Source of the DNA: Rhodospirillales bacterium
GTDB taxonomy: Bacteria; Pseudomonadota; Alphaproteobacteria; Reyranellales; Reyranellaceae
Direction: 5' to 3'
DNA: 56,507 nt
Assembly (NCBI GenBank): GCA_009377525.1
Contig: WHTW01000026.1
Coordinates: 5,554 to 62,060, forward strand
Below, piece after piece: positions 37,827-55,592 of this stretch. Below the pieces are notes generated by a model that was not told where the DNA came from, ran no database searches, and saw only the letters and a program-made list of their open reading frames with translations. The translations under genes were made by a program, and so were the position numbers. Positions within the stretch are counted from its first letter, which is position 1; the number at the start of each line of letters is the position of its first letter.

Positions 37827-37947
37827 GGGTTGAGTACTGGTCCCATTTGTCGCTGAGCATCGAAGCCCTTTAGCGGCTGGCGGTCGAGTGTGGTTGCGGG
37901 AATCAATGCGGTACTGTTGACGTCATCAACGATGTGGACTTGGGGTG

Positions 37948-38284
37948 ATGACCTGCCCCCGGGTTTTCGGGCCATCGATTAGTTGAGAGACTGGCCTCCA
38001 CGAGGAGGCAGGATGAAGAAGTCGAAGTTCACGGAAGAGCAGATCGTGGGGATCTTGCGGGAGACGGATCGCGACCCGGTCGCGACAGTGGCCAAGCGCC
38101 ATGGAGTGAGCGAGCCGGCGATCTACACGTGGAAGAAGCGGTTCGGGTCGTTCCAGCCGGATGACGTTCGGCGTCTGAAGCAACTCGAGCAGGAGAACGC
38201 GCGGCTGAAGAAGCTGGTGGCGGAACGCGACCTCGAGATCGAGGTGATGAAGGAGATCGCTGCAAAAAATGTATGACCTGCCCC
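37948..38284 (+). mobile_element. IS3-family fragment (orfA part only)
   Basis: Begins with TGACCTGCCCC-type end sequence (ATGACCTGCCCC at 37948-37959), carries orfA, and stops where orfB should start. The same 12-mer recurs at 38273-38284 in direct, not inverted, orientation right after orfA. The right half of the element has thus been lost and replaced by another end in the same orientation. Confidence 0.7.
38013..38276 (+). CDS. IS3-family transposase OrfA
   Basis: DNA-binding component of 87 residues. The helix-turn-helix lies in ATVAKRHGVSEPAIYTWKKR, and a leucine-zipper-like segment follows (LKQLEQENARLKKLVAERDL). A GAGGAGGCAGG site precedes ATG 38013. The catalytic OrfB gene is missing after it, so this unit cannot transpose alone. 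Confidence 0.88.
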   Translation: MKKSKFTEEQIVGILRETDRDPVATVAKRHGVSEPAIYTWKKRFGSFQPDDVRRLKQLEQENARLKKLVAERDLEIEVMKEIAAKNV

Positions 38285-38371
38285 ACCCGGGCAAGGGTCG
38301 TTGTCGTTCTGTGTAGTCCCGGAGTCTGATGGTGCGTCATCGATCCTGAGCCGTCAGGAGGAGGATGCACT

Positions 38372-38617
38372 TTGGGAAGCGTTCTTCACGGCTGCGCCCG
38401 CACGACGCCGCGTATTCGAGCCGAGCTCCAAGCGTCGCAAGAGAGCATCCGGTCCCTTGCCGCTCGACACTGTCTGAACCCGAAGACGGTGAAGAAATGG
38501 CGCAGTCGGCCCACGACAGCCGATGCGCCCCAAGGCGCCCAGGAGCACGGTGTTGACGCCGGCCGAGGAGGCCATCGTGGTGGCGTTCCGGCAGAAGACA
38601 CTGCTGCCGCTAGACGA
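38372..38617 (+). pseudogene. IS481-type transposase N-terminal remnant
   Basis: Encodes GSVLHGCARTTPRIRAELQA and SLAARHCLNPKTVKKWRSRP, the N-terminal helix-turn-helix region of IS481-type transposases. A frame change at about 38520 leads to GPKAPRSTVLTPAEEAIVVAFRQK-like sequence in the next frame (RSTVLTPAEEAIVVAFRQKT). The reading ends at LLPLDD where the IS256-type element begins (about 38618). The catalytic core is absent. Confidence 0.75.
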
Positions 38618-39704
38618 TGGAGAGTGTCAGTTTAGCTGTGTGCGAGCGTTCCATGGCAGGTTGTCATCAACGGATTGTAGTAGGCAAACGCTCGGCAAAG
38701 AAGATGGTGAACTGCGCGTAGGCGGCTCGCCAATCGATGGCAGGTTTCCAATGAACGCCGAGATTCCTCAGCGCCAGATAGAGCAGTTTGGTGGCGGCTT
38801 CGTCTGACGGGAATGCTCCTCTGGTCTTGATGATCTTGCGCAAGCCACGATGCAGGCTCTCGATGGCGTTGGTAGTGTAGATCATCTTCCTGATCTGCGG
38901 CGGATAGGCGAAGAACGGCACGACCTCGTTCCAGACCCGCCGCCAGGTCGGGCCGATCGCCGGATACTTCTTGCCCAACTCGGCCTCGAAGTCGGCAAGC
39001 CGCAGCTCGGCCACCTCGGCCGTCTCGGCCCGGTAGATCGCCCGCAGCGCTGGCACCAGCCGTTTGCGATCCTGCCAGGACACAAAGCTCAGACTGTTCC
39101 TGATCAGATGGACGATGCAGGTCTGCACGATCGTCCAGGGGAAGACGGCGGTGATGGCGTCGGGGAAGCCCTTGAGCCCGTCGACCACGGCGAACAGGAA
39201 GTCTTCGACGCCGCGGTTCTTGAGCTCGTTCATGACCCGCAGCCAGAACTTGGCGCTCTCGCTGTGCTCGATCCACAGGCCCAGGACATGCTTGTGGCCT
39301 TCGCAGTCCAGCGCCAAGGCCAGGTAGACGGCCTTGTTCTTGACCACGCTCTCGTCGCGGATCTTGACCCGCAGCGCGTCGAAGACGACCACCGGATAGA
39401 CCGTGTCGAGCGGGCGGTTCTGCCACTCGCGCACCTCGTCCAAGACGGCGTCGGTGACCCGGCTAATCAAGTCCGGGGAAACGTCGACGGCATAGAGTTC
39501 GCGCAAGTGGCCCTGGATCTCACGGACCGTCATTCCCCGGGCGTACAGCGAGATGATCTTGTCGTCGAAGCCATCCAGGCGCGTCTCGCCCTTGGCCACG
39601 ATCTGCGGCTCGAAGCTGCCGTTGCGATCACGCGGCACTTCGATCTCGACCGAGCCGTCCTCGGTCAGCACCGTCTTGGAGTAGGTCCCATTGCGGTTCA
39701 TCGA
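38618..39704 (-). mobile_element. IS256-type element, 5' part of transposase missing
   Basis: The right end starts in GAGAGTGTCAGTTTAGCTGT (38618-38637). The left end and the first part of the transposase gene are gone: at about 39704 the sequence passes into an IS5-type transposase at a shared GAACCGCAA stretch. Confidence 0.7.
38667..39701 (-). pseudogene. IS256-family (mutator-type) transposase, N-terminally truncated
   Basis: 344 residues remain of a normal length of about 400. Core signatures are present: FDALRVKIRDESVVKNKAVY (first Asp), FLFAVVDGLKGFPDAI (second Asp) and IYTTNAIESLHRGLRKIIKT (catalytic Glu region). The first about 60 residues, the DNA-binding start, are missing; the frame begins at MNRNGTYSKTVL, where intact proteins read ENGRNGYSxKTVL. 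Probably inactive. Confidence 0.85.
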
Positions 39705-40423
39705 CGGCCAGGCCGTTGCGGTTCTCCATCAGAACGTGCCCCATGAAGCACAATCGGCTCTCGCGGCCGTCGGCCTTGCGATAGAGCCGGACATCCGGAT
39801 CAGTCGTCGAAGCGTGCGTCTCGTTCGAGCGCTTCTCCTTGTGGAAGTCGCGCTCGCCATTGCGGCCCGGACCCGGGGGGCTCCCCCGAGCCGTCCTTGG
39901 GCCGGAAGCTCTTCATCGATGCCCAGGCGTCGATCAGCGTGCCGTCGGCCGAGAAGTGTTCGCTCAACAGCAGTTTCTTGACCTGGGGCAAGCCTACCAA
40001 CGCGGTCAGGAACTCCCGCGCCACATCGCTCTCCAGCAAGCGATCCCGGTTGTGGCTGAACACCGTCGCATGCCACACCGGCGCGTCGATCGGCAGACCG
40101 ACGAACCAGCGGAACAGCAGATTATAGTTGATCTGTTTCATCAGCAGCCGCTCCGACCGCACCGAGAAGAACGCCTGCAACAGCGTCGCCCGCAACAGCA
40201 CCTCCGGCGCAATCGACGGTTGGCCCATCCGCGAGTACACACCCTCGAAGCGCTTGTTCAGCTGCGCCAGCGCCTGGTCCGCAAGCTTCCGGATCGCCCG
40301 CAGCGGGTGAGCGGCCGGAATGCGTTCCTCCAGCCGCACATACGAGAACATCCCCTCAGACCGATCGTCCAGACCACGCATGCCGTTACTCCGTGACCTG
40401 ACAATCACAGAATCACGACCCAT
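39705..40423 (-). pseudogene. IS5-family transposase remnant, frameshifted and 3'-truncated
   Basis: From 40423 the frame encodes the N-terminal half (MRGLDDRSEGMFSYVRLEER, QINYNLLFRWFVGLPIDAPV, LLSEHFSADGTLIDAWASMK with the first catalytic Asp). The frame breaks at about 39865 in a G/C-rich tract, after GSGEPPGSG. The family continues in another frame with GRNGERDFHK and later CFMGHVLMENRNGLAVD, then stops at the junction with the IS256-type remnant. The C-terminal DDE residues are lost. Confidence 0.82.
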
Positions 40424-40636
40424 CTCACACGTCGAGCGACTTCTTCAGCAACCTGCTAGGCGGATCCTGGGAGGGTTTCATATCGATCTCGCCGGACATG
40501 ATTTTCGGCAGGCCTACCAATGTTCTTTGCTTGATGACATCAGGCCGTCGGGCCCACATTATCGTCGTCGCCACACGCGCGACTGCCACTGAAGAAAGGC
40601 CCAGCACCAGCGCGCGACGCGGAGGAGACCCGGGCC

Positions 40637-41887
40637 ATGGGCATGACGATCATTGAGAAGATTTTCGCGCGCGCGAGCCACCAAGCGAAAGTGGCCGCAG
40701 GTGACCTGGTGGTGGTCGACGTGGACGTCTCGGTCATGCTCGATTCCAGCTTTCATGCCAATCACCGGCGCCGCATTCTCAAGGTGCACGATCCCGAGAA
40801 GATCGTCGTGGTGTACGACCACATGGTGCCGGCCCCGGACAAGATGAGCGCGGAGGGTCACGTCTACGGCCGGGAGTTCGTGAAGCAGTTCGGCATCCGG
40901 CGCTTCCACGATGTCGGTCCCGACCAGGGGATCAGCCATGCCGTGGTCGCCGATCGCGCCTACGCGCTGCCGGGGAGCGTGCTGGTCTGCGGCGATTCCC
41001 ATACCTGCGCCTCCGGTGCTTTCAATTGTGCCGCGCGCGGGGTCGGTGGGCCTGACCTGCTGGGCGCCGTCACGACCGGCAAGACCTGGTTCAAAGTCGG
41101 CGATACCGTGCGCTACGACCTGGTCGGCCAGTTGCGGCCCGGCGTATCGGCCAAGGATGTCTTCCTCCATCTCGCGGGCACCTACGGGCACCATACCAAC
41201 CAGAACATCGAGTTCGGCGGTCCGGGCCTGGCGCATCTCGGCATCAACGCGCGGCGTACCATTGCCACCATGGGCGCCGAGCTGAGCGCGGAGTTCGCCA
41301 CCTTCGAGGCCGACCAGACCCTGCTCGACTATGTGCGGGCCCGCAATCCCGCGCCGTTCGACGCGCAAAACCCCGACCCCGATGCCCGCTACGTCGACCG
41401 CCGCACGATCGATCTCGACACCATGGAACCGCTGGTCGCCCTGCCGGACTCGGTGATCCGAAATTCCGTTCCGGTGGGCGAGGTCGAGGGGGAAAAGATC
41501 CAGCAGGCATTCATCGGCTCGTGCGCCAACGGCACCCTGGACGATTTGGCCGAGGCGGCGCGGGTGGTGAAAGGCAGGAAGGTGGCGCCGGGTGTGCGCT
41601 TCCTGGTGACGCCCGGCACGCAGCAGGTATTCCAGGCGGCGCTGGTGGCTGGCTATGTGCAGACCTTGATGGAAGCCGGAGCCGTGGTGACGCCCGCGAC
41701 CTGCGGCGCCTGCTTTGGCGGCCACATGGGTGTGCTGGGCGCCGGCGAAACCTGCATCACCGCCAGCACGCGCAACTTCAAGGGCCGCATGGGCGATCCC
41801 AGCGCGCGCATCTTCATGGCGTCGCCCGCCACCGTGGCGGCGTCAGCCATCGCCGGGCACATCGTCAATTCCGCCAAAATCGCGTAA
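40637..41887 (+). CDS. Aconitase-family hydratase, large subunit (LeuC/HacA-like, short type)
   Basis: Fe-S dehydratase large subunit of 416 residues (isopropylmalate isomerase/homoaconitase type 2). The [4Fe-4S] ligands are Cys296 (IGSCANG), Cys356 and Cys359 (TCGACFGG). Substrate-region motifs VCGDSHTCASGAF and GPGLAHLGINARRTIATMGA are present. The start is ATG 40637 after GGAGGAGA. It pairs with the small-subunit gene 8 bp downstream. It leads a plus-strand operon with a peptide-type ABC importer and a lyase of the methylisocitrate/dimethylmalate group, so the likely substrate is a substituted malate or maleate rather than isopropylmalate for leucine synthesis. 2,3-dimethylmalate dehydratase (DmdAB) is a precedent. 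Confidence 0.88.
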   Translation: MGMTIIEKIFARASHQAKVAAGDLVVVDVDVSVMLDSSFHANHRRRILKVHDPEKIVVVYDHMVPAPDKMSAEGHVYGREFVKQFGIRRFHDVGPDQGISHAVVADRAYALPGSVLVCGDSHTCASGAFNCAARGVGGPDLLGAVTTGKTWFKVGDTVRYDLVGQLRPGVSAKDVFLHLAGTYGHHTNQNIEFGGPGLAHLGINARRTIATMGAELSAEFATFEADQTLLDYVRARNPAPFDAQNPDPDARYVDRRTIDLDTMEPLVALPDSVIRNSVPVGEVEGEKIQQAFIGSCANGTLDDLAEAARVVKGRKVAPGVRFLVTPGTQQVFQAALVAGYVQTLMEAGAVVTPATCGACFGGHMGVLGAGETCITASTRNFKGRMGDPSARIFMASPATVAASAIAGHIVNSAKIA

Positions 41888-41895
41888 GGTCCATC

Positions 41896-42402
41896 ATGGT
41901 CAGCGGCGCCGTCTGGACGTTCGACGACAACATCAATACCGACCTCATCCTGCCGGGCGACATGCTGTTCGCGACGGAAGAGGAGCAGCGGCGGGCCGTC
42001 TTCCGCGCCAATCGTCCCGGATGGGTCGACCAGGTCCACAAGGGTGACATCATCGTCGGCGGGTTGAATTTCGGCATGGGATCGAGCCGGCCGGCTGCGC
42101 GATCTCTGCGCAACGCGGGTGTCGCGGCCGTGCTCGCCGAATCGATCAACGGCCTGTTCTTCCGCAACGCCGTGAATTTCGGCCTGATCGCGCTGGAGGT
42201 ACCCGGCGTGCGCGCCGCGTTCGCCGAGGGGCAGACGGCGATCGTCTCGCTCGACGATTTCACTGTCCGCAATCGCGAGTCCAACATCGTCCTGCAGGCC
42301 AACCCCGTCCCCCGGATGTTGCTCGACCTGATGCTGGGCGGAGGCCTCTATCCCCATCTCGAGCAAAAGGGACTGCTCGAGCCGCGGCCTGGCGCGCCCT
42401 AG
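41896..42402 (+). CDS. Aconitase-family hydratase, small subunit (LeuD-like, short type)
   Basis: Swivel-domain subunit of 168 residues from ATG 41896. FDDNINTDLILPGDML holds the nucleating segment and NFGMGSSRPAARSLRNAG the GSSR substrate-carboxylate loop. The size of about 165 residues and the sequence are of the archaeal/HacB-DmdB-like type, unlike the 204-residue LeuD at 49562-50176. Cotranscribed with the preceding large subunit; together they form the hydro-lyase. Confidence 0.9.
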   Translation: MVSGAVWTFDDNINTDLILPGDMLFATEEEQRRAVFRANRPGWVDQVHKGDIIVGGLNFGMGSSRPAARSLRNAGVAAVLAESINGLFFRNAVNFGLIALEVPGVRAAFAEGQTAIVSLDDFTVRNRESNIVLQANPVPRMLLDLMLGGGLYPHLEQKGLLEPRPGAP

Positions 42403-42434
42403 AGGCACGACGCGGGCCAGGGAAGAGGCAACGG

Positions 42435-43412
42435 ATGAACAGCTTGCATTGGTACCTGCTGCGGCGGCTGGTGCTTCTGTTGTTCGTGACCGTCGCCGTT
42501 CTGACGATCCTGTTCGTCATGTTCAAGCTGCTGCCCGGCAACCCGCTGTCGGTGTTCATCGACAGCAACTTCTCCGAGGAGATGATCCGCCGCCAGAAGC
42601 AGCTGTGGGGTCTCGATGCCCCGTTGTGGCTGCAGTACGTCCGCTACATGTGGAACATGTTGACCTTCAGCTTCGGCACCTCCTTCTTCCAGATGACGCC
42701 GGTGCGCGACATCGTGGTCGAGAAGCTGCTGCACACGGCGGCCATGATCGTGCCGGCGGTGGTGCTGAGCGTCGTATTGGGCGCGCTGCTCGGATCGTGG
42801 CTGGGCTGGCGGCGCGGCTCGCGCCGGGAAGGCGCCGTCGTGATCAGCCTGCTCGCCTTGCGCTCGGTGCCCTCCTTTTTCGTGGGCATCATCGTGCTGA
42901 TGGTTTTCTCCTACAACCTCGGCTGGTTTCCGCCGGGCGGCATGGTGTCGATCGGCGGCCAGGGCGACAGTTTCCTCGAGACCATCTTTTCGGTCGACTT
43001 CCTGCACCATCTGATCCTGCCCTGCCTGGTGCTGATGACGCGCGAGATCACCAGCCCGGCGTTGTTGCTGCGCAGCACGATGCTGGAGGTGAAGGGCAGC
43101 GATTTCCTCGACATCCTGCGCGCCAAGGGGCTGCCGGAGCGCCGGATCGTGATGCATGCCACGCGCAATGCGCTGCTGCCCCTCGTGACGGACGTTGCCG
43201 TCATGATGGGATTCCTGTTCCAGGGGCAGGTCCTGCTCGAGATCATCTTCGCCTGGCCGGGAGTCGGCCGCGAACTGGTCACGGCGCTCAACGACCTCGA
43301 CTACCCGGTTGCCCAGGCGTGCTTCTTCGTGATGGCGCTGATCATCCTGGTGTTCAATTTCGTGGCCGATGTGCTGTATGCCTTCATCGACCCGCGCGTC
43401 ACCTTGAGCTGA
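42435..43412 (+). CDS. Peptide/nickel-type ABC transporter permease (DppB-like)
   Basis: Membrane subunit of 325 residues with six predicted helices. The N-terminus WYLLRRLVLLLFVTVAVLTI is typical of DppB/OppB, and the EAA loop is DILRAKGLPERRIVMHATRN. The operon context (hydratase upstream, second permease and ATPase downstream, lyase at the end) says that it imports the pathway substrate, which may be a carboxylate or a conjugate rather than a peptide. Confidence 0.93.
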   Translation: MNSLHWYLLRRLVLLLFVTVAVLTILFVMFKLLPGNPLSVFIDSNFSEEMIRRQKQLWGLDAPLWLQYVRYMWNMLTFSFGTSFFQMTPVRDIVVEKLLHTAAMIVPAVVLSVVLGALLGSWLGWRRGSRREGAVVISLLALRSVPSFFVGIIVLMVFSYNLGWFPPGGMVSIGGQGDSFLETIFSVDFLHHLILPCLVLMTREITSPALLLRSTMLEVKGSDFLDILRAKGLPERRIVMHATRNALLPLVTDVAVMMGFLFQGQVLLEIIFAWPGVGRELVTALNDLDYPVAQACFFVMALIILVFNFVADVLYAFIDPRVTLS

Positions 43413-43424
43413 GGAGGCGCGCCC

Positions 43425-44339
43425 ATGACACCAGCGCACACTGTTGCCGAGCCGGGCGGAACCGGTCGCCGCGGCGTCCTCGGCACCCTGGCGCACACGC
43501 TGCGGGTCATCGTGCGCTACCCTACCGGCGCCTTCGGACTTTTCCTGCTCGCCGTGTTCGTCATCGTCGCCCTGATCGGGCCGCTGATCTCGCCGTACGG
43601 GCCGTTCGAGGTCGTGCAGACGGCGCAGGGGCGCGTCGCGCGACTGGTGCCGCCGGGCAGCGTGGCGCTGCTCGGAACAACCAACCAGGGCAGCGATGTG
43701 CTGTCGCAATTGCTGTACGGCACGCGCGTCGCCCTGCTGGTCGGCGTGATCTCGGCGGTCGGCAGCGTCGTCCTCGGGACGCTGATCGGGCTGGTCTCCG
43801 GCTATTTCGGCGGCAAGGTCGACGAGGCGATCATGCGGTTCACCGACGTCGCCTTCGGCATTCCCTTCCTGCCCTTCGCGCTGATCGTCATATCGGTCGC
43901 CGGGCCCAGCCTGCCACTGGTGATCCTGCTGGTCACTCTCTTCCTGTGGCGCACCACGTCCCGCGTGATCCGCGCCCAGGTCCTGACGCTCAAGACACGC
44001 CCGTTCGTGTGGGCGGCGCGCGCGGCCGGCGCCAGCGAGTGGCGCATCCTGTTCGTGCACATCGCGCCCAACGTGCTGCCGCTTAGCTTCCTCTACATGG
44101 CGATCGGCGTGCAGGGCGGCGTGATGCTGGAGGCGGCGCTGAGCTTCCTGGGCTTCGGCGATCCCAACGTGGTCAGCTGGGGCAGCATGCTGAACCAGGC
44201 CTTCCGGGCGGGCGCCATGCGCTCGGCGTGGTGGTGGGTGATCCCGCCCGGCGTGGCGCTGTCGCTGTTCGTGATCTCCGTCTTCATGGTGACGCGGGCC
44301 TACGAGGAGCTGCTCAATCCGCGGCTGAGGGAGACCTGA
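43425..44339 (+). CDS. Peptide/nickel-type ABC transporter permease (DppC-like)
   Basis: Second membrane subunit, 304 residues. The first membrane helix lies at GAFGLFLLAVFVIVALIGPL, and the extended periplasmic loop and the EAA loop KTRPFVWAARAAGASEWRIL are DppC-like. It starts 12 bp after the DppB-like gene, with GAGGAGG upstream, and ends 2 bp before the ATPase start. Works as a heterodimer with that permease. Confidence 0.93.
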   Translation: MTPAHTVAEPGGTGRRGVLGTLAHTLRVIVRYPTGAFGLFLLAVFVIVALIGPLISPYGPFEVVQTAQGRVARLVPPGSVALLGTTNQGSDVLSQLLYGTRVALLVGVISAVGSVVLGTLIGLVSGYFGGKVDEAIMRFTDVAFGIPFLPFALIVISVAGPSLPLVILLVTLFLWRTTSRVIRAQVLTLKTRPFVWAARAAGASEWRILFVHIAPNVLPLSFLYMAIGVQGGVMLEAALSFLGFGDPNVVSWGSMLNQAFRAGAMRSAWWWVIPPGVALSLFVISVFMVTRAYEELLNPRLRET

Positions 44340-44341
44340 TC

Positions 44342-45358
44342 GTGGGCGTGCTGGAGCTTCGCGACCTGTGCGTCGGGTACGCGCTCGGAAATGGCGCCGC
44401 GCTCGCCGTGGACAAGGTGTCGCTGTCGATCGGCGAGGGCGAGTATCTCGGGCTGGTCGGTGAGTCGGGCTGCGGCAAGTCGACGATTGCCAAGGCCATT
44501 CTCGGCATTCTGCCAACCAACGGGCGGGTCGTGTCGGGCGAGATCCTGTATCGCGGGCGCAACATCGTCGGCCTGTCGGTCGCGGAGATGAACCGGCTGC
44601 GCTGGCAGGCGATCGCCCTGATCCCGCAGAGCGCCATGAACGGCTTCGACCCGGTCTTTACGGTGGAGCAGCAGATTGCCGAGGCGATCGACACGCATGT
44701 CGACTGGCCGGCGGCGCGCAAGCGTGAGCGCATCGACGAAATGTTTGCGCTGGTCGGGCTGGAGCAGAGCCGCCTGGCCGATTACCCGCACCAGTTCTCC
44801 GGCGGCATGCGCCAGCGGGCGATGATCGCCATGGCCATGGTGCTCAATCCCGACGTGGTGGTTGCCGACGAGCCGACGACCGGCCTTGACGTGATCGTGC
44901 AGGACCAGATCCTGCACCGCATCAAGCAGATCCATACGCGCCTGAAGAAGACCATGCTGCTGATCACCCACGACATGGCCGTCGTCGCGGAGAATTGCGA
45001 TCGCATCGCGGTGATGTATGCCGGCAAGCTGGTCGAACATGGCGCCCACGATGTCTTCGAGCGCCCCTTCCATCCCTACACGATGGGCCTGTGCAACGCC
45101 TTCCCCGATCTGGCCGACCAGGGCAGGGCACTGGTCTCGATCCCCGGGGCCCCGCCTTCCCTGCAGGCGACGCCGCCGGGGTGCCGCTTCGCCGAGCGTT
45201 GCCCGTTCGCCACCGACCTTTGCCGTCGCGAGGAGCCTGCGCTGTCCAGTGTCGGTGAAGGACATGCGGCGGCCTGCCACTACAGTGCGCGCGCAGCGGA
45301 ATTCCGCGAGCGTGCCCGCCTTGCCGAAACATGGCAGACTGGTGCGGTGGCCGCCTGA
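44342..45358 (+). CDS. Peptide-type ABC transporter ATP-binding protein (DppD-like)
   Basis: ATPase of 338 residues. I take GTG 44342 as start (MGVLELRDLCVGYALGNG), 2 bp after the DppC-like stop, rather than an upstream in-frame start inside that gene. Walker A is GESGCGKST, the signature HQFSGGMRQRAMIA, Walker B VVVADEPTTGLD, and the H-loop LLITHDMAVV. The C-terminal extension has the clustered cysteines of OppD/DppD proteins (GCRFAERCPFATDLC). Its expected partner ATPase (DppF-like) is not in this operon but on the opposite, convergent one at 48528-49550. Confidence 0.93.
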   Translation: MGVLELRDLCVGYALGNGAALAVDKVSLSIGEGEYLGLVGESGCGKSTIAKAILGILPTNGRVVSGEILYRGRNIVGLSVAEMNRLRWQAIALIPQSAMNGFDPVFTVEQQIAEAIDTHVDWPAARKRERIDEMFALVGLEQSRLADYPHQFSGGMRQRAMIAMAMVLNPDVVVADEPTTGLDVIVQDQILHRIKQIHTRLKKTMLLITHDMAVVAENCDRIAVMYAGKLVEHGAHDVFERPFHPYTMGLCNAFPDLADQGRALVSIPGAPPSLQATPPGCRFAERCPFATDLCRREEPALSSVGEGHAAACHYSARAAEFRERARLAETWQTGAVAA

Positions 45359-45381
45359 ACGTGTTCGAGGAGGATCCTTCC

Positions 45382-46260
45382 ATGACTGCAACCAACAAGC
45401 TGCGCGCCCTGCTGTCTCAGCCCGCCATGCTCGCGGCGCCGGGCGCCTACGATTGCGTCAGCGCCCGCGCCATCGAGCGTGCGGGCTTTTCCGCCGTCTA
45501 CATGACCGGCGCGGGGACAGCAGCGACGCTCGGCTATCCGGACTATGGACTCGTCACCATGAGCGAGATGGCCGCCAATGCCGGCCGCATCGCGGCGTCC
45601 GTCGATGTCCCGGTGATCGCCGATGCCGATACCGGATACGGCAACGAGCTGAACGTGATCCGCACCGTGCGCGAATACGAGAAGCTCGGCGTCGCCGGCA
45701 TGCATATCGAGGATCAGGGTTTCCCCAAGAAGTGCGGGCATCTCGAGGACAAGGAGATCATCCCGCGCGACGACTATGTCGCGAAGATCCGCGCGGCCGC
45801 CAGTGCGAAGAAGAGTCCGGACTTCCTGATCATCGCCCGCACCGATTCGCGGGCGGTGCTCGGTTTCGACGAGGCGATCGCCCGGGCGAACGCCGCCCTT
45901 TCGGCCGGCGCGGACATGGCCTTCGTCGAAGCGCCGCAGTCCATGGAGGAAGTCGCGGCGGTGCCGCGTCTGGTCAGGGGGCCGTGCCTGCTGAACATGG
46001 TGTGGCGCGGCAAGACGCCGGAGGTGACGCTGCCGGAAGCCGAGCGCATGGGCTACCGGTTGTCGATCATTCCCGGCGTGGTGACGCGCGCCATGCTGGG
46101 CGCAGCCGAACGGGCTCTCGCCGAACTGATGAGCACCGGCCGGCAGCCCAGGCCCGAACTCGATCTCACGCCGGCCGAGGGCTTCCACCGCAGCGGCGCC
46201 GACGAATGGGACCGCTATCGCACGGCTTTCCGGCAGCAGACCAAGCAAGCGGCGGAATAG
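45382..46260 (+). CDS. Isocitrate lyase/PEP mutase-family C-C lyase (methylisocitrate or 2,3-dimethylmalate lyase-like)
   Basis: TIM-barrel enzyme of 292 residues from ATG 45382 with AGGAGG upstream. Metal-binding DADTGYGN is at residues 81-88. The lyase signature KKCGH is at 116-120 with catalytic Cys118; PEP mutases lack this. So it should cleave a 2-hydroxy- or 3-hydroxy-dicarboxylate to pyruvate or an analogue plus a second acid. PrpB (2-methylisocitrate lyase) and (2R,3S)-2,3-dimethylmalate lyase are the nearest functional types. There are no prpC/prpD genes here, while two aconitase-type hydratases are, which favours a dimethylmalate-like role. Last gene of the plus-strand operon. Confidence 0.9.
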   Translation: MTATNKLRALLSQPAMLAAPGAYDCVSARAIERAGFSAVYMTGAGTAATLGYPDYGLVTMSEMAANAGRIAASVDVPVIADADTGYGNELNVIRTVREYEKLGVAGMHIEDQGFPKKCGHLEDKEIIPRDDYVAKIRAAASAKKSPDFLIIARTDSRAVLGFDEAIARANAALSAGADMAFVEAPQSMEEVAAVPRLVRGPCLLNMVWRGKTPEVTLPEAERMGYRLSIIPGVVTRAMLGAAERALAELMSTGRQPRPELDLTPAEGFHRSGADEWDRYRTAFRQQTKQAAE

Positions 46261-46274
46261 AGCGGGCGAACTCA

Positions 46275-46600
46275 TGTGCCTCCCCCGTCTTACGCTATGG
46301 CATTCACACATCTCGGAAAGTTGTCTGAAACCATGCCGAAGATTTCTTTCCCTCCAAATCGGAGATTCCGAAAAGAATCGCAGATGGAGGGTTTGGGATG
46401 GTTTCGAATCCAAATCGGAGATGTGTGAATCCCGTAGCGTCTTACGGGGGAGGTGGCCCGCAGGGCCGGAGGGGGAAAGCCGCAGGCAGGTATCTGCAAA
46501 TTTCAGATCTGAAATTTTCGGAGATTGGCTGTGTGGCTTTCCCCCTCCGCCCCGTATGACGGGGCACCTCCCCCGATGCGGGGGGGATATCGATCGTCGT
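46275..46600. repeat. Composite palindromic intergenic element between convergent operons
   Basis: Three nested inverted-repeat systems lie in the 347-bp spacer. (1) ATTCACACATCTC (46302-46314) pairs with its complement at 46418-46430, with further imperfect pairing inside. (2) The G-rich block 46446-46481 pairs with the C-rich block 46535-46574. (3) In the loop of the second, AAATTTCAGATCTGAAATTT (46498-46517) is a perfect 20-bp palindrome. It resembles REP/RIME-type intergenic repeats and can act as a bidirectional terminator for the two operons that meet here. Confidence 0.75.
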
Positions 46601-46607
46601 TGCCGGC

Positions 46608-48512
46608 TCAACCCTCGATCATCTTCATACCGCGCCACGTGTAGCCGGCGCCCGACTTCACGACCTGGCGGCAGCGTTCCTTCCACTTCTCGTCGCTGGG
46701 GGGCGGATACATCAGCCGGCCGTCGGGCGCCCAGCGGTAGCCGGCGTCCTTCAGGATCTGACGCGCCTTCTCGAGGTCGAATGCCGGGACCGGCGGCAGC
46801 TTGGGATTGTTCCAGGGGTTCGCGTCGACCAGGAACGTGTTGCCGGTGGGCAGACGGCCGGCCCCTTCCCACACCACGTCGACCAGGAACTTGCGGTCGA
46901 ACGTGTGGTGCCAGGCACGACGGAATTCGTAGTCGCGGAAGGGCAGCCAGGAGATCCGCGTCACGCCGTGCAGCCAGTTGATGTCCTTCACCTGGGTCAC
47001 GGTGACGTGCGGCAGGCCCTGCAGCGACTTGGCCTGCGAAGGCTTCAGCCACACGCCGTCCATGAAGTCGATCTCGCCCGCCTGCAGGCGTCCCAGCAGG
47101 CCATCGACCGAGGGCACCACCACCATCACCACCTCGTCGAGCTTGGGCGCGGCGAAGTGCTTCTTGTTGGCGATGAGCTGCATCTCCGTGTCCTTGCGGT
47201 AGCGCCCGAACTTGAACGGGCCGCTGCCGATCTGGTCCTTGGGCTCCACCAGCAGCCGCCTGGCATCCTCGCCGTCCTTCAGGTTCTGGTCTTTCGCCAT
47301 CCGCTCCCAGACGTGCTGGGGAAAAATGACGTTGAGGACAAGAAAGTAGGTCTCGAACTCGGCGTAAGGCTGCTTGAACCGAACCCGCACCACGCGCCCG
47401 GGCTCATCGGTGATCTCGACGCTCTCGATGAAGCTGTTCGCGGTCCAGAAGAAACCACGATCGTACTTGATCAGGAAGTCGAGCGTGAACTTGAGGTCGT
47501 GCACGGTGACGGGCTTGCCGTCGTGGAACTCCATGCCGGCACGCAGGGTGATGTCCCAGGTCCGTGGGTCGACCAGCTTCCACTTCTCCGCGGCCCACGG
47601 AATGACGTTGAGATTGGCGTCGAGGAACGCCAGCCGGTCGTAGATCATGCGGCCGACGGCGCGGTAGCGATTGCCGGCGCTGATGAGGTTGATCGACCGG
47701 TCGTCGGCGGTTATGCCGACGATGGCGCGCTTGCGATTGGTCTTGGGCCGGGCATTGAGATAGGTCAGGTAGATGTTGAAATCGGCGATGCCGAACCCGG
47801 TCGCCGGCTGGACATCGGCCCACGCCCCGCTGTTGTAGGCTTGCAGGATGCTCGGGCCCCAGGCGAACTGCGTTATATAGAGGTCATCGGCCAGCACTTC
47901 CTGGGCGCGCATGATGTGCTTGCGGCGCTCGTCGCGATCGGGCGAGCGACCCTGGGCTTCGACCGCTTCGTCGTAGGCGCTGTTGGCCCATTCGCCGTAG
48001 TTCCGGCGATCGAGCCCGTAGGCCCGCGAAACGATCCATTCCGACGGGTCGAGGCGCTCGATGCGCGGCACCGCGTTGTGGATCTCCACGTCGCCGTGGC
48101 GATGGCTCAGGATGGCCTCGAGGTATCGTGCCTGGGAGACGTTCACCACATTGTACTTGATGCCGATCTTCTCGGCGTCGGCGCCCCACTTGCGAAACGC
48201 GTCGCCCCAGTCGGGCGTCGACGTCTGCGTCAGGACGGTGAACTCCGGCACCTTCTCGTTGTCTTTTGGCCAGACGATGCGGCGCAACGTCTCGTCGACC
48301 CATCCCTGGTCGCGCAGGAAGTAGCCGTCCTTCTCGTTGTAGAAATTGCGGTACTTCGGGTCGGCAAATTCGATCTTGTCGGCGCCTGTCGCCTGGGCCG
48401 AGGCCGGCAGGGCGCCGGCGAGGGCGACGCCGCCGCTGAAGGCCGCGAGCTTCAGGAACGTGCGGCGGTCGATCTCCGATCTGTCCGCTGCTTCTTCGAG
48501 GTCGTGCGTCAT
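46608..48512 (-). CDS. Family 5 (peptide/nickel-type) ABC solute-binding protein with an unusual N-terminal domain
   Basis: Periplasmic binding protein of 634 residues with a Tat signal (DRRTFLKLAAFSGGVALAGA). The classical start of SBP family 5 (IYDRLAFLDANLNVIPWAAE, then MEFHDGKPVTVHDLKFTLDF) appears only at about residue 290. Before it lie about 230 residues that look like the C-terminal lobe of such proteins (EWANSAYDEAVEAQGRSPDR, AQEVLADDLYITQFAWGPSI). The protein therefore seems circularly permuted or partly duplicated and is about 100 residues longer than usual. It supplies the importer whose permeases are on the convergent operon. It is last in the minus-strand operon leuC, leuD, ATPase, binding protein. 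Confidence 0.88.
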   Translation of the reverse strand: MTHDLEEAADRSEIDRRTFLKLAAFSGGVALAGALPASAQATGADKIEFADPKYRNFYNEKDGYFLRDQGWVDETLRRIVWPKDNEKVPEFTVLTQTSTPDWGDAFRKWGADAEKIGIKYNVVNVSQARYLEAILSHRHGDVEIHNAVPRIERLDPSEWIVSRAYGLDRRNYGEWANSAYDEAVEAQGRSPDRDERRKHIMRAQEVLADDLYITQFAWGPSILQAYNSGAWADVQPATGFGIADFNIYLTYLNARPKTNRKRAIVGITADDRSINLISAGNRYRAVGRMIYDRLAFLDANLNVIPWAAEKWKLVDPRTWDITLRAGMEFHDGKPVTVHDLKFTLDFLIKYDRGFFWTANSFIESVEITDEPGRVVRVRFKQPYAEFETYFLVLNVIFPQHVWERMAKDQNLKDGEDARRLLVEPKDQIGSGPFKFGRYRKDTEMQLIANKKHFAAPKLDEVVMVVVPSVDGLLGRLQAGEIDFMDGVWLKPSQAKSLQGLPHVTVTQVKDINWLHGVTRISWLPFRDYEFRRAWHHTFDRKFLVDVVWEGAGRLPTGNTFLVDANPWNNPKLPPVPAFDLEKARQILKDAGYRWAPDGRLMYPPPSDEKWKERCRQVVKSGAGYTWRGMKMIEG

Positions 48513-48527
48513 CCTTCCTGTCCTTCT

Positions 48528-49550
48528 TTATGGTTGAGTCACGAGGTGGCAGGCGGCCTGCCGCCTGCTGCCGACTGGTTCGAGCAAGGGCTCCTGCGTG
48601 CGGCAGAGAGCGACGGCGCGGCTGCAGCGCGGATTGAACCGGCAACCCGACGGCAGGTCGATCGGGTTCGGTACGGCGCCCTCGAGATGGATGCGCTGCC
48701 GCGCGCCGCGGCGCATCACCGGCGCGGCCGCAATCAGGGCCTGCGCATAGGGATGCTGCGGATCGTCGAGGATCCGCGCCGTCGGCCCGATCTCCACGAT
48801 GCGGCCGAGATACATGACGGCGATCCGCGTGCAGATGTGGCGCATCGTCGACAGGTCATGGGAAATATAGAGGATCCCCATGTCGAGCTCGGTGGCGAAT
48901 TTCCTGAACAGGTTGAGGATGCCGGCGCGCACCGACACGTCGAGCATCGATACCGGCTCGTCGGCGACCAGGAAGCGCGGCTCGACCGCGATGGCACGTG
49001 CGATCGCGACGCGCTGGAGCTGGCCGCCGCTCATCTCGTGCGGATAGCGGCCGGTGAAGTTCTTCACCGGCAACAGGCCGGCGCGCTCCAGCGCGCGATG
49101 CACCATCGCCTCGTGGCCCGATGGCTCCGCCGGCAGGTGGATGGCGATCGGCTCGAGCACGCTCTGATAGACGCTGAAGCGCGGGTTCAGCGACTCGTAG
49201 GGATTTTGAAAGACGATCTGGGCCCCGCGTCGGAAGCGCTTCAGCCGTTGTCGACCGGTGATCGATGCAAGGTCTTCGCCGTCGAAGACGATCGACCCAC
49301 CCGATGGCGCATGCAGCTTCACGACCGTCATGCCGGTGGTCGACTTGCCGCAGCCGCTCTCGCCCGCCAGCCCGAGGACCTCGCCCGGCCGGATGGCAAA
49401 GTCGACGCCATCGACGGCCTTCAGGTGCCTGGCTTCGGCGGCCCCGACAAGCGAAGCGAAGAAGCCGCGCCGCACCGGATACCATTTGCGCAGGCCGCGC
49501 ACTTCGATGATCGGTGGCGCGCTGTCGGCGCGCTCAGTCTGCGGCGACAT
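48528..49550 (-). CDS. Peptide-type ABC transporter ATP-binding protein (DppF-like)
   Basis: ATPase of 340 residues. Walker A is GESGCGKST, the signature HEMSGGQLQRVAIARAI, Walker B FLVADEPVSMLD, and the H-loop ISHDLSTM. The longer N-terminus (RKWYPVRRGFFASLVGAAEA) and the IVFQNPYESLNPRF Q-loop mark it as the OppF/DppF partner of the DppD-like ATPase at 44342-45358. C-terminal cysteines are CRFNPRCSRAVALC. It lies 12 bp after the leuD-like gene, so transport and hydratase genes are cotranscribed. Confidence 0.93.
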   Translation of the reverse strand: MSPQTERADSAPPIIEVRGLRKWYPVRRGFFASLVGAAEARHLKAVDGVDFAIRPGEVLGLAGESGCGKSTTGMTVVKLHAPSGGSIVFDGEDLASITGRQRLKRFRRGAQIVFQNPYESLNPRFSVYQSVLEPIAIHLPAEPSGHEAMVHRALERAGLLPVKNFTGRYPHEMSGGQLQRVAIARAIAVEPRFLVADEPVSMLDVSVRAGILNLFRKFATELDMGILYISHDLSTMRHICTRIAVMYLGRIVEIGPTARILDDPQHPYAQALIAAAPVMRRGARQRIHLEGAVPNPIDLPSGCRFNPRCSRAVALCRTQEPLLEPVGSRRQAACHLVTQP

Positions 49551-49561
49551 GGCGGCGGCGT

Positions 49562-50176
49562 TCAGCCATAGATCCAGGGACGCGCCTTGCGGTCACGGTC
49601 CTGGAACGCGGCGATCTCGCCGTCCCGCATCAAGGTCGTGTCGATCGGGTCGAGCCCTTTCAGCAAACCCTGGCGCCGGTTCGGGTCGACCTCGAAGGCC
49701 ACCGTGCGCTGGCCCGGCGTGCGAATCTCCCGCGCCTCGAGATCGACCGCGAAGGCGGCGCCGGACGTGCAGGTCCGTGCTTCCTCCATGAGCCGGTCGA
49801 TCTCCTCCTGCGGCAGGGCGATCGGCAGCACGCTGTTCTGGAAGCAGTTGTTGAAGAAGATGTCGCCGAAGCTCGGCGCGATCACGCAGCGGATGCCCAG
49901 GCGGCGGATGGCCACGACCGCGCCCTCGCGCGAGCTGCCGCAGCCGAAGTTGCGCCCGGCGATCAGGATCGGCGCCCCGCGATAGCGCGACTGGTTGAGG
50001 ACGAAGTCGGAGTTTTCGGAGCCATCCTTGTGATAGCGGATGGCCTCGAACGCCCACTTGCCGAGATCGACATTGGCAAGCGTCACCAGGCGCGGGATGG
50101 GAATGATCAGATCGGTGTCGACATTCTCCCGCGCCAGCGGCGCGGCAACGCCGGACAGTACCGTAAAGGTTTCCAT
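49562..50176 (-). CDS. 3-isopropylmalate dehydratase-type small subunit (LeuD-like, bacterial type)
   Basis: Protein of 204 residues of the bacterial LeuD type. NVDTDLIIPIPRL and AGRNFGCGSSREGAVVAIRR (the GSSR loop) are intact, with the C-terminal RDGEIAAFQDRDRKARPWIY. It is cotranscribed with the large subunit 15 bp upstream. Its setting with importer genes rather than leuA/leuB argues for a catabolic paralogue, but housekeeping leucine synthesis cannot be excluded from sequence alone. Confidence 0.92.
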   Translation of the reverse strand: METFTVLSGVAAPLARENVDTDLIIPIPRLVTLANVDLGKWAFEAIRYHKDGSENSDFVLNQSRYRGAPILIAGRNFGCGSSREGAVVAIRRLGIRCVIAPSFGDIFFNNCFQNSVLPIALPQEEIDRLMEEARTCTSGAAFAVDLEAREIRTPGQRTVAFEVDPNRRQGLLKGLDPIDTTLMRDGEIAAFQDRDRKARPWIYG

Positions 50177-50191
50177 GGCGGATGCTCCCGG

Positions 50192-51595
50192 TCAGGCCAG
50201 ACGGCGTGGGTCGGCGATGCTGCCGGCGATGGCTGACGCGGCCGCCATCGCCGGGCTGGCGAGGTGGGTGCGCGCGCCGGGACCCTGGCGGCCGACGAAG
50301 TTCCGGTTCGACGTCGAGACGATGCGCTCGCCGGGCGCCACGACCTCGCCGTTGGCCGCGGCGCATTGCGCGCAGCCCGGCTCGCGCCAGTCGAAGCCGG
50401 CCGTCCGGAACACGGTGTCGAGTCCTTCCGCCTCAGCGGCCTTCATGACGTTGTAGGATCCCGGCACCACCCATGCCGTCACGCGCGCATCGACACGCCG
50501 ACCGCGGGCGATGGCCGCCGCCTGGCGCAGGTCCTCGATGCGGCTGTTGGTGCAGGATCCGATGAAGACGCGGTCGATCGGCGTGCCGGCGATCGGTTTG
50601 AGCGGCTCCAGCCCCATGTAGCGGAGCGCCGTCTCCATCTCGAAGCGCCGCGACGAGCCGGCGGCAGCGGTCGGGTCGGGGATCGCGCCGTCGATCCCAA
50701 CCACATCCTGCGGGCTGGTGCCCCAGGTGATTTGTGGGGCGATGGCGCCGATGTCGACGCTCTCCTCGCGGTCGAACACGCAGCCCTCGTCCGAGGGCAG
50801 GGTTCGCCAGTGCGCGACGGCGCGGTCCCACAGCGCGCCCTTGGGAGCGAACGCGCGGCCGGCCAGGTACTCCAGCGTCGTGTCGTCCGGCGCGATCATG
50901 CCAAAGCGCGCGCCCATTTCGATCGACAGGTTGCACAGGCTGAGGCGGGCTTCCATGGACAGGTTCTGGATCGTGAGGCCAGCGAATTCCACGGCCGAGC
51001 CCGCGCCAGCGGCGGCGCCCAGGCGGCCGATCAGGTACAGCATGATGTCCTTGGACTGCACGCCCTCGGGTAGCCTGCCGGTGAAGGTGACCCGCATGCG
51101 CTTTGGCTTCGTTTGCGGCAGCGTCTGCGTGGCCAGGACATGAAGCAATTCAGAGGAGCCGATGCCCCATGCCATGGCGCCCAGGGCGCCGTGAGTGCAG
51201 GTGTGGCTGTCGCCGCACACCACCGTGCTGCCCGGAAGCGATATGCCCATCTCCGGCCCGACGACATGGACGATCCCCTGGCCTGGCTCGCCGAGGTCGA
51301 ACAACCGGATGCCATGGCGCGAGGTCTCCTCGCGCAGCAGCTTCATGTAGCCGCTGCTGAGCTCGGTCGTCTCCGAGGTGCGTCCGGGTTCGCTTGAGAC
51401 GGCGTGATCCGGCACGGCGAACACCATGTCAGGATTGCGGACCTTGCGCCCGGATTCCCGAATCTGCTTCAGGCCGCGCCCGCCGCCCAGGTCGTGCATG
51501 ATGTGACGGTCGATGGCGAGCAGGGCCATGCCGCTGCCCAGATCGGTGACGACGTGGGCGTCCCATATCTTGTCGAACAGGGTCTGCGCGGCCAT
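50192..51595 (-). CDS. 3-isopropylmalate dehydratase-type large subunit (LeuC-like, bacterial type)
   Basis: Fe-S subunit of 467 residues, the normal LeuC length. Cluster ligands are Cys348 (FIGSCTNSRIEDL), Cys408 and Cys411 (REPGCAQCAAAN); VVCGDSHTCTHGALGAMAWG is present. First gene of the minus-strand operon leuC, leuD, dppF-like, binding protein, with GGAGG before ATG 51595. The other hydratase of this locus (40637-42402) belongs to a different subfamily, so the two are not a recent duplication and probably act on different intermediates. Confidence 0.93.
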   Translation of the reverse strand: MAAQTLFDKIWDAHVVTDLGSGMALLAIDRHIMHDLGGGRGLKQIRESGRKVRNPDMVFAVPDHAVSSEPGRTSETTELSSGYMKLLREETSRHGIRLFDLGEPGQGIVHVVGPEMGISLPGSTVVCGDSHTCTHGALGAMAWGIGSSELLHVLATQTLPQTKPKRMRVTFTGRLPEGVQSKDIMLYLIGRLGAAAGAGSAVEFAGLTIQNLSMEARLSLCNLSIEMGARFGMIAPDDTTLEYLAGRAFAPKGALWDRAVAHWRTLPSDEGCVFDREESVDIGAIAPQITWGTSPQDVVGIDGAIPDPTAAAGSSRRFEMETALRYMGLEPLKPIAGTPIDRVFIGSCTNSRIEDLRQAAAIARGRRVDARVTAWVVPGSYNVMKAAEAEGLDTVFRTAGFDWREPGCAQCAAANGEVVAPGERIVSTSNRNFVGRQGPGARTHLASPAMAAASAIAGSIADPRRLA

Positions 51596-51817
51596 GGAGT
51601 CCTCCGTATTGGTTTCAGTTTGTTCGTTGGGCGGCTACCGGTTACCTGATCGAAGTTCTGATCCAAGCGCAATGAGAGATTAATGCATCGCCGTTTGCAG
51701 CGCGAGAGATCGGATTTGTCCGAACGTCGCCGGCGCCGGCGGCCGGTCGCCGAGCGCGGTCGTCCCAGACCTCAGCTGCAAAGGCAGGCATCAAAGGCGG
51801 CCGCCTTTGCCGCCAGC

Positions 51818-52235
51818 CTGACGGCTAATCTCACGGCGCATTGGATCGCCGCCAGATCACCGATACCTTCCCGTGGAACGAAGCGCCGGATTATCTCGTC
51901 CGGGACCGCGACGCGTCCTAAGGTCACGCAGCCACCCGACGTCTTTCGGCCTTGGGTATACGCGATCACCCGACGGCCCCACGTCACCCGGACAGAGCGG
52001 GCATGCGGAGCGACTGATCGGCTCGACCCGCTACGAGTGCTTCGATCACATCGTCGTCTTCGGCGACGCCCATCTGGGCAGGATCCTTGCGGCCTACACG
52101 GGCTACTCCAACGAACTCCGAACGCATCTGTCGCTGAGTATGGACTCGTCGGGCCATCGGTCGGTCCAACGGCTCGGCCAGGTCGCCGCGCGGCCGATCC
52201 TTGGCGGACTACATCATCACTATTGCCGGATGTAG
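51818..52235 (+). pseudogene. Integrase-core (DDE) transposase remnant
   Basis: Decayed C-terminal part of an IS3/IS481-like transposase spread over frames: LTANLTAHWIA (51818), APDYLVRDRDAS (about 51870-51906), a broken stretch, then GHAERLIGSTRYECFDHIVV and the rest to ARPILGGLHHHYCRM in one frame ending at 52235. A stop and at least two frameshifts interrupt it. The 220 bp before it, after the leuC promoter, hold nothing recognisable. Confidence 0.72.
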
Positions 52236-52272
52236 TATTTGGTAGGCACGCTGGTGCCATCAGCGCCATGGA

Positions 52273-52493
52273 TGATCGCAGGGCTGTCTGCCGATATCCG
52301 ACCGCTGATCGGCGAAACGGTGACACGGAGCGGTCACGTGCGCCTAGGTCTCGAGGATGCCCCCATTGGGTACGCTGATGAGCAATCTCGCCTGGGTTGA
52401 GGAGGCGGTGCGAATCGTACGCGAAAACGAAGCCGAGCCAGCCTCGGGGCCGAAGTGCGGCAGGCGCTCGGCTCACTTGCCGCCGGCACCTGA
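52273..52493 (+). pseudogene. BKACE (DUF849)-type protein remnant, C-terminal end
   Basis: Three short stretches in different frames give the end of a beta-keto acid cleavage enzyme: VTRSGHVRLGLEDAP, then SNLAWVEEAVRIVRENEAEP, then AEVRQALGSLAAGT and TGA at 52491. Intact relatives read VRVGLEDN... NAELVERAVRIA... A..EARALLG. Two single-base shifts separate the pieces and everything upstream is lost. The call rests on pattern recall of the family C-terminus and is moderate. Confidence 0.55.
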
Positions 52494-53954: not shown

Positions 53955-55592
53955 ATGAATGCACCGGTTGGCACGATCGACGGAGTCGTGACGCCACAGG
54001 TCCTGCGCGAGATGATGCGCGATGGCGCAGAGCTTGCCGTGCTGGATGCTCGCGGCGAGCAAAGCTTCAGCCAGGCGCATCTGCTGTTCGCCACCTGCCT
54101 GCCCCTGGGACGGATAGAGCTGGATGCGGCCTGCCTGCTGCCCCGTCGTTCGGTGCGTGTGGTGTGGTGCGACGACGGATCGGGACTTGCCCGGCGGGCG
54201 GCGTTGCGATTGCGTGCATTGGGCTATGACAACGTGTCGACGCTCGACGGCGCCACCGAGGCTTGGCGCAGCGCTAGACTACCACTCTATTCGGGAGTGC
54301 ATGTGCCGAGCAAGGCTTTCGCCGAAGTGGTCGAGCACGAATGCGGCACGCCCTGGATTTCCGCGGAGGAACTGAACGAGCGCCTCACCCGAGGCGATGC
54401 GATCCGGGTCTTCGACAGCCGCAGCTTTGAAGAGTATCAGAACAACTCGATCCCGGGAGCGACCAGCCTGCCCGGGGCCGAGCTGGTTTACCGCATCCAC
54501 GATCTCGTGCCGGCGCCCGAGACACTCGTCGTCGTCAATTGTGGCGGTCGCACACGCAGCATCATTGGCGCCCAGGCGCTCATCAACGCCGGCGTACCGA
54601 ATCGCGTGGTTTCCCTGCGCAACGGCACCATGGGATGGCATCTGGCCGGGTTCCCGGTCAGCCGCGGCGCCGTTCTGCAGGCAGCCGAGCCGTCATCGAA
54701 GGCGCTCGAAAGGGCGACTCGGGCTGCCGAGTCGGTCGCCGGCCAGCTCGGCATCCGCGGCATCGACATGCCGACCCTGGCAGCTTGGCGCGACGAGATC
54801 GAGAGCAGGACCCTCTACGTCCTGGACGTGCGCAGCCCCGAAGAATACCGGGCGGGACACCTACCAGGCGCTTTGTCGGCACCGGGCGGGCAACTGGTTC
54901 AGGAGACCGACAACTGGCTCGCGGTTTGGGGTGCGCGCGTCGTCCTGGTCGACGATCGCCATCTCGTTCGCGCACGGATGACGGCCTCCTGGCTGATGCA
55001 AATGGGATGGACGGACACCGCGACGCTGGCCTGGGATCCTGCGCGCGACCCCGTCGAGACAGGTTTCCCGGCCTCGATGCCACTCGGCCTCGACTCCGTT
55101 GCCCACATGGAGTCCCGCGCCGTAACCCCGGCCCTGCTCGCGGATCGCCTGAAGTCCGCTGCTTCCACCGTCGTCGATGTCGGCAGCAGCAAGAACTACA
55201 CAAAGGGCCATATCCCCGGGGCGTATTTCGTGACCCGCGTGCGGCTTCCCGAACACCTGGCAAAGCTCCCGTCGCAAGGGCCGCTGGTGGTCACGTCGGA
55301 GGATGGCATGCTGGGGCAGTTCGCCGCCGCCGACCTCGTTGCGACGACGGGGCGTGACGCCCAGTGGCTGCGGGGCGGCACGCAGGCCTGGGCCGCTGCA
55401 GCCCTGCCGCTGGAAGAAGGCGACGCGCGCCTGATCGATGAGCCGGACGATGTCTGGTACGCGCCGCGTGAGCGGAGCACCTGTCCGGAAGAAGGCATGG
55501 TGCAGTATCTCGACTGGGAGATCGAACTAGTGAACCAGATTGCCCGCGATCCCGACAACCGCATCCGGATCGCGAGACTGGGCCGCCGTTGA
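53955..55592 (+). CDS. Four-domain rhodanese (sulfurtransferase-like) protein
   Basis: Protein of 545 residues with four rhodanese-like domains (about residues 10-110, 133-236, 270-365 and 388-480). The active-loop Cys is present in domain 1 (Cys72, VVWCDDGSG) and domain 2 (Cys196, VVNCGGRTRS). It is replaced in domain 3 (VLVDDRHL) and in domain 4 (VVTSEDGML). So two domains may carry persulfide and two may be structural or regulatory. A C-terminal tail of about 65 residues ends the protein. No signal peptide. The stop overlaps the TTG start of the flavin monooxygenase gene, which implies coupling and a role in sulfur handling during that reaction (inference). Confidence 0.9.
   Translation: MNAPVGTIDGVVTPQVLREMMRDGAELAVLDARGEQSFSQAHLLFATCLPLGRIELDAACLLPRRSVRVVWCDDGSGLARRAALRLRALGYDNVSTLDGATEAWRSARLPLYSGVHVPSKAFAEVVEHECGTPWISAEELNERLTRGDAIRVFDSRSFEEYQNNSIPGATSLPGAELVYRIHDLVPAPETLVVVNCGGRTRSIIGAQALINAGVPNRVVSLRNGTMGWHLAGFPVSRGAVLQAAEPSSKALERATRAAESVAGQLGIRGIDMPTLAAWRDEIESRTLYVLDVRSPEEYRAGHLPGALSAPGGQLVQETDNWLAVWGARVVLVDDRHLVRARMTASWLMQMGWTDTATLAWDPARDPVETGFPASMPLGLDSVAHMESRAVTPALLADRLKSAASTVVDVGSSKNYTKGHIPGAYFVTRVRLPEHLAKLPSQGPLVVTSEDGMLGQFAAADLVATTGRDAQWLRGGTQAWAAAALPLEEGDARLIDEPDDVWYAPRERSTCPEEGMVQYLDWEIELVNQIARDPDNRIRIARLGRR

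Follow-up and report, generated by a model that had tools for sequence, protein, structure and literature searches.

In the solute-binding proteins of family 5 (Cluster C; PF00496), among them DppA, OppA, AppA and NikA, the N-terminal part of the chain comes first. In nicotinate fermentation, dimethylmaleate hydratase (DmdAB) is followed by dimethylmalate lyase. In Variovorax, a methylcitrate cluster is reported to contain a dml gene. From Treponema, TpMglB-2 (Tp0684) is described as a sugar-binding protein with circular permutation, and its authors proposed the class Type Ic or Cluster Bc (PMC4990184). The locus analysed here occupies positions 40637-51595 of a stretch of 56,507 nucleotides (the window) from a Rhodospirillales bacterium of the Alphaproteobacteria (contig WHTW01000026.1). 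On two convergent arms it encodes one Dpp-type ATP-binding cassette (ABC) importer with a circularly permuted family-5 binding protein, two unlike hydratases (HydLS and LeuCD) and a C-C lyase.

The binding protein differs from DppA and its relatives in carrying the C-terminal segment first. With TpMglB-2 it shares the natural circular permutation of a bilobed ABC-importer binding protein, but TpMglB-2 belongs to the Type I/Cluster B sugar class, whereas the window protein is assigned to family 5 and is cut elsewhere. Among the papers listed in searches of the open-licence literature on permuted binding proteins, none concerned a natural permutant of family 5 (SBP_bac_5). As in the DmdAB system, a LeuCD-type hydratase is combined with a lyase of the PrpB family that is predicted to yield pyruvate, and HydS passes the cut-off of a LeuD/DmdB model; the window locus differs in having two unlike hydratases and a dedicated importer, and no nicotinate-pathway genes were seen among its genes. 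The same pairing of enzymes occurs in the lyase-LeuCD and lyase-HydLS pairs of Alpha- and Betaproteobacteria, of which those examined lack the permuted importer. Literature searches on dimethylmaleate hydratase, dimethylmalate lyase, maleate hydratase with citraconate and dimethylmaleate with nicotinate returned no matching system.

The binding protein (46608-48512, minus strand, 634 residues) passes the gathering score of PF00496 (SBP_bac_5) with 182.4 against 32.4 bits, but the match is confined to residues 303-616. The C-terminal part of DppA-like proteins corresponds to residues ~88-253 and their N-terminal part to residues ~254-605, so that the profile halves are swapped relative to the usual family-5 chain. 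After rearrangement, the sequence could be aligned to DppA 17-469 in one stretch with 63.5 bits, while the natural order gave 57.5 bits over 17-341. The rearranged query was shorter (516 against 634 residues), and not all PDB sequences gained by it: 5yyb fell from 59.5 to 58.6 bits and 1xoc rose only from 89.5 to 90.7. In a profile-order test, the natural-order profile scored better than the swapped one in all 29 permuted rows, which represent 22 distinct proteins. Of the 11 other rows, 10 fitted the swapped profile equally well or better; nine of the 40 rows were left unassigned, one of which, L127, scored better in natural order. The AlphaFold2 model of the protein is confident, with a predicted local distance difference test (pLDDT) value of 90.7, and none of the 50 rows listed by Foldseek exceeds a query TM-score of 0.44 in these sequential alignments, which mostly spanned residues 254-605. 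The N-terminal part alone, searched as a single sequence, matched the PDB weakly (4qfk, E 0.076), and in a profile search the second domain matched DppA with an i-Evalue of only 0.025; a model of the N-terminal part alone was discarded (pLDDT 50.8 from a 3-row alignment). An ordinary binding protein with an extra N-terminal domain was considered and rejected, because by comparison with canonical members the extra part matches the C-terminal part that is missing from the rest. By sequence profiles and predicted model, the segments are swapped with the fold kept, as in a circular permutant, and on these profiles the protein is a permuted relative of SBP_bac_5 and not an ordinary member. Its start carries an RRTFLK leader, which we take to be a twin-arginine-like motif.

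The segment order is common to 82 aligned homologues of 50-87% identity. Among 385 sampled genomes of the class, 17 matched the binding protein at E <= 1e-30, and in 12 of these 17 (12/385 sampled), belonging to nine families, the protein was permuted by the profile-order test; of the other five, G062 has a protein spanning both parts that yielded no clear order, and four match the second part only. Distant relatives of about 30% identity (L132/L138, L118-L126 and L133) have the same permuted order. One of them, L132/L138 (31%), is found in the window's own genome with dppBCDF adjoining, and the distant permuted proteins whose neighbours were compared (L137, L138) stand beside ordinary dppBCDF sets. 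The existence of these relatives therefore makes the permuted type older and wider than the locus itself. The close form (above 50% identity) was found in three of the 385 genomes (G000, which is the window's own, G072 and G105), and a second sample of the class returned only G072 and G105 again; searches within the orders to which G105, G072 and G222 belong yielded no more than 1, 1 and 3 genomes. In all five genomes whose surroundings were viewed (the window's, G059, G072, G105 and L017), the close form is tied to HydLS, LeuCD or both.

An earlier sequence-only reading of this stretch had described a ten-gene convergent locus with two unlike hydratases and a lyase, and all ten open reading frames could be confirmed on their strands in the open reading frame list of the window, with families called by NCBIfam and Pfam profiles with curated cut-offs. 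The plus arm begins with HydL (40637-41887, 416 residues), the large subunit of an aconitase, isopropylmalate isomerase (IPMI) or HacA-type hydratase (NF001614, 440 against a cut-off of 385), and HydS (41896-42402), the small subunit of the LeuD/DmdB family (TIGR02087, 117.8 against 108.95). These are followed by the DppB-like (42435-43412; PF00528, PF19300) and DppC-like (43425-44339; PF00528, PF12911) permeases, both with BPD_transp_1 matches, the DppD-like ATPase (44342-45358), in which profiles matched ABC_tran and an oligo_HPY tail, and the lyase (45382-46260), a member of the isocitrate lyase/phosphoenolpyruvate (PEP) mutase superfamily with a PEP_mutase fold, a KKCGH motif and 3fa3 as its nearest solved relative. 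The start of DppD was placed at a GTG at 44342, the longest open reading frame running from 44228; the lyase and HydS probably start at 45382 and 41896, as set by eye, while the analyses used 45376 and 41890. On the minus arm lie LeuC (50192-51595; TIGR00170, 602.3 against 560.25), a large subunit that is not the housekeeping one, LeuD (49562-50176; TIGR00171, 184.5 against 116.25), a small subunit with the altered loop IIPIPRLVT where the housekeeping copy has IIPKQFLK, the DppF-like ATPase (48528-49550), again with profile matches to ABC_tran and an oligo_HPY tail, and the binding protein. The earlier statement that neither arm holds a whole importer also proved correct: the plus arm supplies B, C and D and the minus arm F and the binding protein, which together make exactly one Dpp/Opp-type ABC importer of two permeases, two oligo_HPY-tailed ATPases and one binding protein.

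The two hydratases are unlike, HydL and the window LeuC being about 32% identical and falling into separate groups in the tree. HydL exceeds the cut-offs for NF001614, TIGR01343 and TIGR02086, which describe large subunits of the IPMI/HacA type, and retains the GSC...CxxC cluster cysteines. HydLS reaches the subfamily cut-offs (TIGR02086, 410.8 against 410.15, for the large subunit; TIGR02087, as given above, for the small one) and does not reach the equivalog cut-offs for HacA_Meth and LEU2. The best solved relative of HydL is the large subunit of isopropylmalate/citramalate isomerase (4nqy/4kp1, 318.3 bits). Besides the second piece of HydL, PF00330 is found at five places in the genome, one each on contigs C181, C11 and C31 and two in the window. 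LeuC of C181 adjoins LeuD and LeuB (TIGR00169, 477.6 against 353.2) and groups with E. coli LeuC (support 100/98), whereas the window LeuC groups with the copies of G059, G072 and C31 (97/95). The loop of LeuD, which may set substrate choice, reads IIPIPRL in the window and IIPKQFL in the C181 locus and in E. coli LeuD. The window LeuCD was thus rejected as the housekeeping pair on the leuB-linked set on another contig, the tree and the loop change, and by its sequence it is not the leucine-biosynthesis pair. A third LeuCD pair is located on C31 (L098 5477-7573), with a LeuC 64% identical to that of the window and an adjoining M20 deacylase; an M20 gene also adjoins LeuCD in G105.

The lyase was found nearest to 2,3-dimethylmalate lyase 3fa3 (212.5 bits), which ranked first among 18 solved sequences matching at E <= 1e-20, followed by oxaloacetate acetylhydrolase (195.4), 4iqd (191.6), petal death protein (176.8) and E. 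coli PrpB 1mum (162.8). Dimethylmalate lyase cleaves dimethylmalate to pyruvate and propionate, and the window enzyme is a candidate for a cleavage of this kind. In the lyase tree the window enzyme falls into an 11-row group (100/99) with the LeuCD-adjacent lyases of L111, L112, L116 and G059, apart from the HydLS-adjacent lyases of L014, L018, L037, L039, L049 and L078. This grouping points to LeuCD and the lyase as the core pair. The trees were rooted at the midpoint only, with the proteins of L007, L136, L023 and L036 entered twice, and they include the very long branch L057_18450 and, for the lyase, that of E. coli PrpB. As regards the single pathway put forward earlier, they agree with it in separating LeuC from the housekeeping copy; the position of the lyase apart from those beside HydLS is one of the points that leave the scheme less certain.

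The sequence-only reading had named two outcomes that would speak against a single pathway, a housekeeping LeuCD and a lack of co-occurrence of the arms in related genomes, and neither was obtained. Co-occurrence was seen in full in G059 of the same genus, where nucleotide identity is 89.7% over 40535-46265 and 90.3% over 46589-51627 and all ten genes are in the same order, so that the conserved block extends over 40535-51627. In G072, from another order of the class, eight of the ten genes are found in the same convergent order, with DppB, C, D and the lyase facing the binding protein, DppF, LeuD and LeuC at 75-89% protein identity. In G105, from a third lineage, a single stretch contains every one of the ten gene types, but shuffled and at 42-75% identity, together with M20, GntR and purine-type permease genes. 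L007 shows the plus arm only, its contig ending in the lyase, and in L017 a single strand encodes HydLS and then DppF, the binding protein and DppB, C and D. As other genomes carry the block or portions of it, the linkage appears to be more than chance. The importer of G072 is preceded by an ATP-dependent type hydantoinase pair (HyuAB) and a nitronate monooxygenase-type gene; on the other side of the locus lie a second lyase, an HbpS-like gene, DUF1028, a 2-hydroxyacid dehydrogenase and a flavin adenine dinucleotide (FAD) oxidoreductase. As a separate observation, G059 has a second leuD, leuC and lyase (41%, 55% and 59%) beyond LeuC, with a TauD-type dioxygenase gene (L099 11314-15251). When the best 80 of 449 HydL matches were kept and 79 loci compared, the lyase-family cluster was present in 57, and a TctC-type binding-protein family, of which one representative was scanned, clustered in 30. 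Of seven further lyase matches, six loci were examined, and leuC and leuD adjoin the lyase in three (L111, L112, L116). In Candidimonas nitroreducens (L029 4419-14027), a single stretch lacking this importer combines a lyase, leuC, leuD, HydL and HydS with a further lyase.

Transposase genes or remnants are found on both sides of the block, at 37926-40423 and 51683-52476 of the window. They are of the Mutator (PF00872) and DUF772 types, with IS3-like remnants read by eye, as was the remnant on the right-hand side. The conserved block may be an exchanged island. Neither these transposases nor the permutation of the binding protein had been part of the sequence-only reading. The gap between the convergent genes is filled with imperfect inverted repeats at 46279-46575 (arms of 39 nucleotides at 85%, 22 at 91% and 16 at 94%), and between the aligned parts it measures 324 bases in the window and 146 in G059; an Rfam scan of the window gave no matches at the gathering score. 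A four-domain rhodanese-like protein stands beside a LysR regulator at 53955-55592.

We give roughly an even chance to the reading in which the importer with its permuted binding protein, the two hydratases and the lyase work together, importing a substituted di- or tricarboxylate and cutting it to pyruvate and a second acid. The permuted protein would catch the substrate, which we infer to be probably branched, in the periplasm and deliver it to the permease formed by DppB and DppC, for which DppD and DppF, whose genes lie on opposite strands, would provide the drive. HydLS would then hydrate or dehydrate a double bond adjacent to the carboxylates, LeuCD, with its changed substrate loop, would shift the hydroxyl to the branched carbon or act on a second intermediate, and the lyase, like dimethylmalate lyase, would carry out a retro-aldol (Claisen-type) cleavage to pyruvate and a short carboxylic acid. 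LeuCD and the lyase probably form the core enzymatic pair, to which HydLS would be an addition that broadens the substrate range or makes the substrate ready. In G072, HyuAB occupies the position of HydLS upstream of the importer, from which one may guess that some relatives first open a ring (imide or lactam). Several observations speak against such a joint function. Carboxylate import is a guess from the enzymes, since family-5 importers take many kinds of solute. At E <= 1e-100 the binding protein occurs in only 2 of 65 genomes of the genus and is thus rare; the 30 kb examined about the G072 locus contain no HydLS, and the 21 kb of L017 neither LeuCD nor a lyase. Among the 79 HydL loci, importer genes at no less than 50% identity are present in only three (L007, L008, L017) and LeuC at this level in only two (L008, L029), the importer and HydLS are absent at comparable identity from all six further lyase loci, and G105 LeuC falls outside the window LeuC group. 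The layout is rare and HydLS is separable from the rest. Of the earlier interpretation, the split importer and the recurrence of both arms were upheld, together with a LeuCD other than the housekeeping pair. Its scheme of exactly two hydrations and one cleavage is only a possible one, as the ratio of hydratases to lyases varies: G059 has an additional lyase-LeuCD set, and G105 has two LeuD but three lyases.

The separability just described would also suit two independent functions that became neighbours by chance or through mobile elements, a peptide or other-solute importer and a lyase-hydratase module that acts on a branched acid produced within the cell. HydLS, lyase-LeuCD and the importer are each found without the others, the block is flanked by transposase genes and remnants, and, judging by PDB names, peptides, metals, opines or sugars are the ligands of most family-5 binding proteins. 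We nevertheless consider this explanation somewhat unlikely, as the same gene types stand together in another order in G105 and eight of ten do so in G072, while in the window, G059 and G072 the importer genes are divided in such a way that both arms combine them with enzyme genes. The top NCBIfam match of the lyase is the prpB model TIGR02317, which could indicate a methylcitrate-type route, with a methylisocitrate lyase and with HydLS or LeuCD as an aconitase-type isomerase for imported 2-methylcitrate or alkylcitrate. Aconitase-family enzymes perform such isomerisation in known prp routes, and in L017 an MmgE/PrpD-like gene adjoins HydLS. With 276.5 against a cut-off of 354.4 the lyase stays below this model and closer to dimethylmalate lyase, prpC and prpD were not found among the locus genes, and E. 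coli PrpB forms a long outlying branch of unsure placement, so that this route is clearly unlikely. It is highly improbable that the locus serves a second biosynthetic route of the leucine or homocitrate type while the lyase does something unrelated. LeuC and LeuD do exceed the leuC and leuD cut-offs, but the genome holds a separate leuB-leuC-leuD set, from which, as from E. coli LeuC, the window LeuC stands apart, the LeuD loop differs, and the importer and lyase share the operons.

The joint import and cleavage system preferred here can be extended to a bolder form, which we regard as a long shot: a novel catabolic system, where a circularly permuted family-5 class, the first to be known, would supply dialkylmaleate-type acids or their ring-closed imides to an iterative hydrate-and-cleave set, stripping pyruvate from branched, possibly tetrapyrrole-derived, carboxylates. 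As a conserved and widespread natural permutant of a very well-studied fold, the binding protein would indicate that an importer tolerates an exchange of the two parts of this fold, and it offers a basis for building sensors and for studying the spread of such permutations. The enzymes around it make a testable candidate for a route, so far undescribed, by which uncultured Alphaproteobacteria take up and break down branched dicarboxylates.

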